From: Actinomycetospora termitidis
GTDB taxonomy: Bacteria > Actinomycetota > Actinomycetes > Mycobacteriales > Pseudonocardiaceae
Assembly (NCBI RefSeq): GCF_030286555.1
Contig: NZ_JASVWF010000007.1
Location: 248,001 to 312,000, forward strand
Direction of reading: 5' to 3'
Length of the DNA: 64,000 bases
The notes beneath the pieces were generated by a model that did not search any database, had not been told where the DNA came from, and saw only the letters and a program-made list of their open reading frames with translations. The first letter of the stretch is position 1, and each line of letters begins with the position of its first letter. This document shows positions 835 through 26,808 of the stretch, piece by piece. The position numbers and the translations under genes were made by a program.

Positions 835-3800
835 GTGGCGGCAGGCACGGTCGAGGTCGACCCGGCGACGACCACCGAGCTCCCGCTGACCGCGGCGCAG
901 GCCGGCATCTGGTTCGCGCAGGCGATCGACCCGGAGAACCCGATCTACACGACGGGCGAGCGGGTCGATCTGCACGGTCCGCTGGACGCCGAGGCGTTCG
1001 TGCGCGCCGTGCGGGTCGCGGTCGACGAGGCGGACGCGCTGCACGTGCGGGTGCGCGAGGTCGACGGCGAGCCCCGCCAGCGCTTCCTCGGCCCGGACGA
1101 GCGCCCCGACTGGACCGTGGACCGCGTCGACCTGCGCGCCGAGGCCGACCCGGAGGCCGCCGCCGTCGCGTGGATGCGCGACGCGCTCGCGGAGCCGATC
1201 CACCCGGCGTCGGGAACGGTGCTCTTCGGGCAGGCCCTGCTGCGTCTCGGCGACGACCACCACGTCTGGTTCCACCGCTACCACCACCTCGTCACCGACG
1301 CGTACGGCTTCTCGCTGATCGCCCGGCGCGTCGCCGCCGTGGCGACCGCGCTGGCCACGGGGGAGGAGGTGCCGCCGCGGCGTTTCGGGTCGGCGGCCGA
1401 CCTCCTCGTCGGGGAGCACGAGGTGAGCGCGACGCAGCGGAAGGCCGACCGGGCCTTCTTCGCCGACCGCTTCCCCGCCGCCCCGGCCGCGGTGACCCTC
1501 GGTCCGGGGGCCGCGCTGACGTCGCACACCTTCCTGCGGGAGGGGACGACGCTGCCGGCGTCGGTCGTGGAGGGCCTCGGCTCGTCGTGGCCCAACGCGG
1601 TCGTCGCGGCGGTGGCGGTGCTGCTGGCCCGGCACGGGTCGGGCGGGCCCGAGGACGCGCCGGGAGAGATCGCGATCGGCGTCCCGATGATGAACCGGCT
1701 CACGGGGCCGAACCGGTCCGTGGCCTCCCGGACGCCGGGCATGCTCGTGACGATCGTGCCGGTGCGCGTGACGGTGGACCCGTCCGCGACCGTGGGCGAC
1801 CTCGTCGTCGCGGTCGAGGCCGAGGTGACCGAGGCGCGGGGCCACGCCCGGTACGGGCTGGAGGACCTGCGGCGGGACCGCGGGGCACGGGCGGAGCGGT
1901 CCGTGCCGTGGGTCAACGTGAAGCCGTTCGCCGACGCGCCGACGATCGGGTCGGACGTCACCGGGACCGCCCGGCCGGTCTCCGGCGGGCCGGTCCACGA
2001 CCTCGCGGTGAACGCCCAGCGGGCCCCCGACGGGTCGCTGCACCTCGACGTCGACGCCAACCCGGCCGCGCACGACCCCGACGTCCTCGCGGCCCACGCC
2101 CGCCGGCTCGCCGGGCTCATCACGACGATGGCCGCGGTCGACCCGTCCACCCGGGTCGGATCGCTGGCCGTGCTCGACGGCGACGAGGCCGCGGCGGCGC
2201 TCGCGGCGGGGACCGGGCCGTCGGTGCCCACCGAGTGGTCGCGGCGGTCGCTGGCGACGCTGCTCGGCGACGCCGTGCGCGACGGCGGGGAACGCCCCGC
2301 CGTCGGGACCCTGACGTACCCGGAGCTGGACCGGCGGGCCCGGGCGGTCGCGGCGGCGCTCGTCGCGGCGGGGGCCGGCCCGGACGCCCTGGTGGCGCTG
2401 GCGCTGCCGCGCGACGAGCACCTCGTCGTCGGCGTGCTCGCCGCGGTGTACGCCGAGGCCGGGTGGGTGCCGCTGGACCTCGACGTCCCACCCGCACGTC
2501 TCGGCGCGATCCTCGAGGACGCGGCGCCGGTGGTGGCGCTCGTCGCCGGGGAGACGGCGGCCGCGTTCGAGGAGGCGGCGCCGGGAGTGCCCACCCTCGA
2601 CGTCAGCAGTGCGGCCATGGTGACGTCCGACGGCACGAACGCACCCGGTACGGACGCCCACGCCGCCCACGTCATCCACACGTCCGGCTCGACGGGCCGG
2701 CCGAAGGGCGTCGTCGTCCCGCGGGCGGCGCTGCGGACGTTCCTGCTCGACATGCTGCCGCGGACTGCGCTCGCGCCCGGGTCGACGCTGATCGCGGTGA
2801 CGACGGTCGGGTTCGACATCGCGGCCCTCGAACTGCTCGTGCCGCTGCTGGCCGGGGCGCGGATCGTGGTCGCGCCGCGGCGCACCGTGCAGGACCCGGC
2901 GAAGCTCGCCGCGCTGGTCGCCGAGACCCCGCGGCCGCTGACGATCCAGGCGACGCCGACCCTCTACCGCGCGCTGCTCGACGTCGGGGCGTCGCTGGAC
3001 GAGGTCACCGTCCTCGTCGGCGGCGAGGCGCTGCCGGCCTCCCTGCACGCCGACCTGCTCGCCGCGGGCGCCCGCTCGGTCACCAACGTCTACGGCCCGA
3101 CGGAGACGACCGTCTGGTCCACGGCGTCGTCGGGCACCGCGATCGGCCGCGCGATCACCGGCACGACGGCGCACGTCCTGGACGGCTCGCTGCAGCCGGT
3201 GCCGCCCAGGGTCGTGGGGGAGCTGTACCTCGCGGGGGCCGGGGTCGCGCGCGGCTACCTCGACCGGTTCGCCCTCACGGCGGAGCGCTTCGTCGCCGAC
3301 CCGCACGGGCCGGCCGGCACCCGGATGTACCGCACCGGCGACCTCGCCCGGCGCGACGACGACGGCGACCTGCACTACGTCGGCCGCGCGGACCAGCAGG
3401 TCAAGGTGCGCGGCCACCGCATCGAGCCCGGCGAGATCGAGGCCGCGCTGGATGAGCTCGACGGCGTGTCGCGGTCGCTCGTGACGGTCCGCGACGACCG
3501 CCTCGTCGCCTACCTCGTCGGCCCGTCCGACCTCGACGTCGGCACCGTGCGCGAGCGCCTCGGCGACCGGCTGCCCGCGCACCTGCTGCCGTCGGCCGTC
3601 GTCGTGCTGGACGCGTTCCCGGAGACGCCGAACGGGAAGATCGACCGCAAGCGCCTGCCGGATCCGGGTTCCCGACGGCGGGTCGCGCGCGACCCGTCCG
3701 GGCCGGCCGAGACCGAGGTGTGCGCGCTGGTCGGCGAGCTGCTCGGCGTCGAGGCGGGGCCGGACGACGACTTCTTCGCCCTCGGGGGCCACTCCCTGCT

Positions 3801-26808: not shown

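Follow-up and report, generated by a model that had tools for sequence, protein, structure and literature searches.

A short palindromic element of the genus Actinomycetospora is found at sites and in orientations that are common to related species, while its sequence differs between them by dialect; the positions thus look inherited, and the sequences appear to change in concert. Inherited position with concerted sequence replacement is, as judged from sequence, the best-supported account of the history that these copies would have had, and from it we infer a copying mechanism. On balance, we lean towards the view that this is an old, genus-wide, REP-like palindromic element that has been overwritten in place by new variants.

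The window, by which we mean the whole stretch of 64,000 nucleotides that was analysed, contains six units of the element of about 54-61 nt, all of them in frame, in two NRPS genes and one glycosyltransferase gene:

484..5607, plus strand: NRPS 1, a host gene with Condensation, AMP-binding and PP-binding domains; its start is uncertain (835 according to the gene caller)
2600..2653, minus strand: copy within NRPS 1, in the loop of an adenylation domain before TSGSTG; core at 2602-2624 with 1 mismatch
3887..3940, plus strand: copy within NRPS 1, just ahead of a condensation domain; core at 3916-3938, differing from the consensus by 2 mismatches
5604..17903, plus strand: NRPS 2, a host gene with three AMP-binding stretches and a thioesterase
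7237..7290, plus strand: copy within NRPS 2, in the loop of an adenylation domain; exact core at 7266-7288
11523..11575, plus strand: inverted double within NRPS 2, in the loop of an adenylation domain; made up of a decayed minus arm, a spacer and a plus arm
15730..15783, plus strand: copy within NRPS 2, in the loop of an adenylation domain; core at 15759-15781 with 2 mismatches
24403..26808, plus strand: host gene glycosyltransferase (Glyco_trans_1_4 and related), 801 aa; gene-caller start, open frame from 22864
25103..25156, minus strand: copy within the glycosyltransferase gene; exact core at 25105-25127

In the inverted double, the minus arm (11523-11545, 5 mismatches) is separated by a 7-nt spacer (11546-11552) from the plus arm (11553-11575, 2 mismatches), and the left arm of the copy at 15730..15783, TCGACGATGTGG, is similar to the type found in dialect A (see below). 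Four of the six units are at home in adenylation-domain loops before the TSGSTG motif. The refined core, GTCAGCATGGCCGCANTGCTGAC, has 7 window matches with up to three mismatches against 0.00 expected from 100 shuffles, one place being counted on both strands and the decayed arm at 11523 not being included. The looser pattern GTCAGCA-N9-TGCTGAC, also with up to three mismatches, has 14 matches where 2.5 are expected, so that part of its window matches are due to chance. An earlier note on this DNA had placed cores at 2602, 3916, 7266, 11523/11553, 15759 and 25105, and all of them were found there, with the refinement that those at 2602 and 25105 read better on the minus strand and that 11523/11553 is one inverted double. 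Its claim that every window copy stays in frame was borne out as well, all six units being in the same codon phase (phase 0) of the predicted genes. By contrast, the unit length of about 43 nt that it gave is too short, as conservation over 73 copies spans about -29 to +31 of the core, and the shared flank that it described, GGATTCTCTGCCGTCSGAC, exists but is one variant among others of a variable left arm.

An Rfam scan of the window returned no matches. Compared with the genus, positions 18000-29000 of the window gave, among the matches listed, long matches to the first 3.4 kb only, and the glycosyltransferase part gave, again among the matches listed, short matches only. Positions 3000-9000 matched 34 plasmid records, none covering 80% (the best, 12%).

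The genome to which the window belongs (G000; 6.56 Mb in 30 contigs) has its own dialect of the element, here called Z. The exact pattern GTCAGCANNGCCN4TGCTGAC is matched 69 times in G000 and never in 40 relatives, 17 of them of the same genus. With up to three mismatches, the refined core is matched 83 times at 82 places of G000 (about one per 80 kb): 63 matches have no mismatch, 14 have one, 2 have two and 4 have three. The genome-wide search that had been set as a check thus turned up many copies in unrelated genes. At one mismatch or fewer, the Z core is absent from all 17 other genomes of the genus, and a Z-like pattern sought in 150 genomes of the family was matched 71 times in G000, 6 times in G002 and once in each of 19 others that match. 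The exact core, when compared with genome contigs among which the same or very near genomes may be absent, matched one Lacticaseibacillus record (L074), a probable chance match.

The architecture of the unit was read from 73 copies with up to two mismatches (49 of them exact), located in the window and in the DNA around most copies, a set that leaves out at least five one-mismatch places of the genome-wide count. Conservation has a clear left edge, and the unit consists, in order, of a left arm, variable and about 22 nt long, a spacer of 7 nt close to GTCCAGY and a 23-nt right arm, the ends of which are inverted repeats and which is often followed by AC and then by a G-rich stretch. The Z core has a 7-bp stem starting with G-C and a 9-nt centre, and its next base is mostly A or G. 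A few copies in G000 are inverted doubles (L055, L056 and L057). Five Z units were found to fold no better than shuffles (z -1.35 to 0.81), and it is from the symmetry of its core that a hairpin is proposed for Z; inverted doubles of other species fold far better than shuffles (z -11.5 for L130, of dialect A, and z -10.5 for L132, of the G015 dialect).

Six close pairs of Z copies occur in G000, at 311615/312882, 866349/866961, 997237/997706, 1405992/1407223 and 246139/246234 of contig C1 and at 161921/163244 of contig C22, and every one of them is minus-then-plus; unlike these pairs, close copies on contig C4 share a single orientation. The idea that paired copies are the ends of one larger transposon was dropped, as the genes between four of the pairs, judged by eye from their translations, look ordinary and unrelated. 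In the fifth pair, both copies lie within one gene, and the sixth (246139/246234) is a dimer without a gene between.

A home-made gene caller, which was trained on window genes and is uncalibrated, places 24 of the 73 units entirely within predicted genes and 14 across a gene edge, and leaves 35 clear of genes, many of these last nearly filling a gap of 60-80 nt. The picture of an element that resides within genes, which had been drawn from the window, holds in full for 24 copies but not for the other 49. Among the intragenic units, 19 are in phase 0, 5 in phase 1 and none in phase 2, the phase in which the unit contains a stop. Since open frames are a requirement of the gene caller, the absence of phase 2 (0 of 24) is in part a circular result, but the excess of phase 0 over phase 1 (19:5, p 0.007) is not. 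The ten host proteins that were scanned include an EmbC-type arabinosyltransferase, an NAD-dependent epimerase, a GntR/aminotransferase protein, a polysaccharide deacetylase/glycosyltransferase, an AMP-binding enzyme, a tetrapyrrole methylase, AtuA, GGACT and the window's glycosyltransferase, as well as one protein with weak TPR matches only. Retention within genes appears to be limited to permissive places and open frames, and at gene ends, where many copies sit, the hairpin could act on transcript ends.

In the sequences compared, each species or clade that was closely examined has its own near-uniform version of the core on what reads as the same architecture. For instance, G010 has 31 matches, in 28 places, at two or three mismatches from Z, and these are mostly GTCAGCGTGGCCGCCACGCTGAC. 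Half-sites of dialect A (GRCAGCAACGACGCTTYSCTGCC, up to two mismatches) number 238 in G001, 186 in G003, 144 in G016 and 111 in G014; elsewhere, there are 16 in G000, 5 in G009, one each in G017, G002 and G013, and none in the other nine genomes. A skeleton pattern was counted 50 times in G008, 52 in G005 and 56 in G015, against 5, 5 and 1 for the respective controls (the figures for G008 and G005 being counts taken without a view of the matches), and was low in G017 and G011, with 4 each against 3 and 1. Across dialects, the CAGC..GCTG skeleton is conserved and the stem halves co-vary, as seen by eye (GTCAGCA..TGCTGAC, GTCAGCG..CGCTGAC and GCCAGCAA..TTGCTGGC). Dialects A and Z have about 66% of right-arm positions in common, and 5′ of this arm Z has GACGTCC and A has ACTGGAT. 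Additionally, some intragenic copies are mosaics of an older-type left arm and a new right arm (e.g., L051:2464). Sibling species carry a near-perfect palindrome of 57-58 nt, and a dialect-A 57-mer found no match among plasmids. In copies of G010 (e.g., L083, L097, L100 and L101), another stretch resembling the unit, CGGCGTGTCGCG..CGAGGATGTGGCGATCCTGG, often comes after it, as judged by eye, which suggests that the two form a larger composite repeat.

A different dispersed motif, 15 nt long (TTCCCGACGRCGGGT), surfaced in a listing of 13-mers that was too noisy for the palindromic element. It has 20 window matches with up to two mismatches against 0.72 expected, for instance at 3669, 8053, 13957, 20605, 28005 and 36586. 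The density of TCCCGACGRCGGG is 17-26 per 100 kb in G000 and the four dialect-A species against 0-6 in G015, G010 and G009, and TTCCCGACGRCGG has 52 matches in the G000 DNA examined, 41 of them inside predicted genes. Such a density would bring this second motif nearer to an uptake- or Chi-like motif.

Evidence on the history of the sites comes from three syntenic regions of about 20 kb each, in which eight Z sites, other than the window's own six, were compared with six or seven relatives (83-91% identical in syntenic blocks), giving 53 site-by-relative comparisons. No Z element was present in any of the 53, and a non-Z element was found at or near the place in 38, taking up to five mismatches to a non-Z motif, one of these motifs (X) being itself derived from the compared sequences; some matches at S2 are weak (5 mismatches), anchoring was by one flank only for S5 in all relatives and for S3 in three, and the G010 elements at S4 and S6 sit in wider gaps. 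G015 lacks an element at S4, G010 at S1, S2 and S7, G001 at S2 and, as far as its segment was read, G014 at S5. At S6 (L103:2501), a different long hairpin, GTGAGCACTAA..TTAGTGCTCAC, replaces the element in G016 and G015, and G003 has the same start and then a 1.6-kb difference. The remaining exceptions gave either no match or one with 6-7 mismatches. In the EmbC-type gene, two in-frame sites are common to G000, four dialect-A species and G015 and are not found in G010 (6 of 7 species). No target-site duplication was noticed by eye at the few empty sites.

As support for mobility, the earlier note had named copies in unrelated genes and at sites that are empty in relatives. Presence and absence do differ between species (G015 lacks the element at S4 and G010 at S7), but the expected picture of freshly invaded, otherwise empty sites did not hold, given the element of another dialect at or near the place in those 38 comparisons and at 15 of 19 sites against G003. 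As separate observations, the intragenic S2 element is present twice in G009, 75 nt apart (L125:12771-12868), and about 3.2 kb of G000 (L108:10434-13622), which end beside a Z element, are missing there from G016 and G003, both of which have an element at the junction.

The comparison with G003 was extended by 40 further stretches. In all the G003 DNA examined, 19 of the 73 Z sites have both flanks comparable, 20 of the 40 stretches adding no comparable site. At these 19 sites, G003 has a clear non-Z element in 15 cases, a decayed one in 1 and none in 3, two of which are one locus; 3 of the 15 are in loci chosen for dialect A, and without them there are 12 clear and 1 decayed of 16. Orientation is the same in both genomes at all 14 clear single-copy sites, the fifteenth being a double. 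Over the 15 pairs, mean identity within the unit is 0.35 for the outer part of the left arm, 0.34 for its inner part together with the spacer and 0.66 for the right arm. In the left flank, it is 0.65 for the first 10 nt, 0.78-0.83 in bins to 110 nt and 0.71 at 141-150 nt, and in the right flank it is 0.53, 0.70 and 0.84 for the first three 10-nt steps and 0.80-0.91 beyond. As the 10 nt beside the unit are poorly conserved on either side (0.65 and 0.53), the edges of the tract are blurred.

Between G000 and G003, left arms at the same site are no more alike than those at different sites (identity 0.353 and 0.369, respectively; permutation p 0.82), and in a separate test within the syntenic-block comparison such site memory was likewise absent (p 0.84). 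Dialect-A species among themselves do keep it (0.69 vs 0.52). In an unrooted tree of 57 blocks, rooted on G015/G009/G010, G000 is sister to the dialect-A clade, and A could therefore have replaced a Z-like ancestor in that clade; the 16 A half-sites of G000 suggest that dialect A was ancestral to both G000 and the A clade. Each species was represented by one genome, and no swap was caught between strains.

In the mechanism that we favour, a new variant would spread by overwriting resident copies in place, through a non-reciprocal, gene-conversion-like copying confined to the element and perhaps begun by cleavage or stalled replication at the palindrome. More tentatively, there may be an element-specific overwriting system by which units of about 54 nt, at inherited chromosomal sites, are periodically rewritten to one new sequence, genes included, in a templated manner and without a RAYT or long homology. 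A RAYT-type transposase is unlikely, since a search at E 0.001 detected Y1_Tnp (PF01797, RAYT family) in none of the 18 genomes of the genus and, as a control, in 5 of 14 known genomes. Against overwriting, a right-arm match of about 66% between A and Z is little homology for ordinary recombination, the five Z units fold no better than shuffles, and the presence/absence differences show that gain or loss occurs too. The left-arm difference between intragenic and other copies could be due to coding constraint and not to conversion tracts. These same presence/absence differences agree with turnover at hot spots, where a putative transposase with preferred, oriented targets would act, old units being precisely lost and the vacancy being refilled by the active unit of the lineage. 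The near-identity of the Z cores, a sign of recent spread, and the G-rich stretch that follows the right arm in many copies, which could be a target, also fit such turnover. However, at each of the 14 clear single-copy sites a unit would have to be lost and another inserted in its place with the orientation kept. Nor would one expect such turnover to yield mosaics of an older left and a new right arm, and no transposase of the Y1 family, the sole one searched, was found in the genus; we consider it rather unlikely.

It seems improbable that the copies are recognised by a DNA- or RNA-binding protein that evolves fast and whose changes in specificity they follow through point mutation and selection or through biased uptake. 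The conserved CAGC..GCTG skeleton would suit recognition, and the uptake sequences of Neisseriaceae, for which the excerpt of PMC3630211 describes clade-specific dialects, likewise occur in inverted pairs and inside genes. Yet the element is sparse (83 in 6.56 Mb) and about 54 nt long, its left arm loses same-site memory too, and cores that depart from Z are few: 6 of the 83 cores in the genome are two or three mismatches from Z, and 11 of 84 cores in the DNA around Z copies lie at three to six mismatches, several of them probably by chance. Independent REP or MITE insertions in each species, with shared positions reflecting nothing other than a preference for gene ends, could account for the 49 of 73 copies that lie between genes or across a gene edge, many nearly filling a short gap; sites inside genes are shared as well, though, such as the two in the EmbC-type gene, with orientation kept, and we regard this explanation as very improbable. 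As for chance or codon conservation within NRPS domains, to which the four window units in adenylation-domain loops might point, it is refuted by the 83 genome-wide matches, many intergenic or in unrelated genes, and has 0.00 matches expected in window shuffles against it, which leaves it practically no credibility.

Judged by the features compared, the element behaves like a REP or RPE yet cannot be assigned to either the GTAG or the CGTC REPs. Both types are described in the excerpts of PMC3733652, which place the Rickettsia RPEs among the CGTC REPs, say that the latter lack a dedicated transposase and give them a CGTC (or TGTC/CCTC) tag beside the stem, a stem of 8-9 bp that almost invariably begins with A-T pairs, a loop of 4-5 nt and a CCA tail. 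At the position of the tag, Z and dialect A differ, with GACGTCC just 5′ of the right arm in the former and ACTGGAT in the latter. Short palindromes that lie between genes and also in frame inside unrelated genes are common to the RPEs and the element, and to this extent the likeness to Rickettsia proposed in the earlier note stands; it does not extend to stem start, loop length and tail, all of which differ from those given in these excerpts, which, for RPEs, do not describe the dialect swap at shared sites that is seen here. With GTAG REPs and REPINs, the element has in common inverted doublets and species-specific classes, but no GTAG appears in the position table of the 73 copies and no Y1_Tnp in the 18 genomes. 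For comparison, the excerpt of PMC3686654 reports that orthologous RAYTs of pseudomonads and stenotrophomonads are flanked by different REP classes. REP-like repeats are also reported from the same phylum, the REP table in the excerpt of PMC12306157 including three Actinomycetota species and the excerpts of PMC3733652 mentioning untagged repeats in M. tuberculosis.

The element also resembles bacterial MITEs in consisting of non-coding inverted-repeat units, but many of its sites are old and shared; a parent was sought via PF01797 only. Uptake sequences are shorter and far denser, at about one per kb, than the element, which occurs about once per 80 kb as a two-arm unit. In the open-licence PMC literature, we found neither a description of this element, which is not proof of absence, nor an account of a genus-wide, in-place dialect swap.

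Whether scattered REP-type palindromes owe their distribution to transposition or to conversion between copies is an old open question. In this genus, the alternatives are testable, thanks to many shared sites, clade dialects, the 16 A half-sites surviving in G000 and the mosaics. Moreover, in-frame palindromic insertions, best known from Rickettsia, are now found in NRPS and EmbC-type genes of a high-GC genus.
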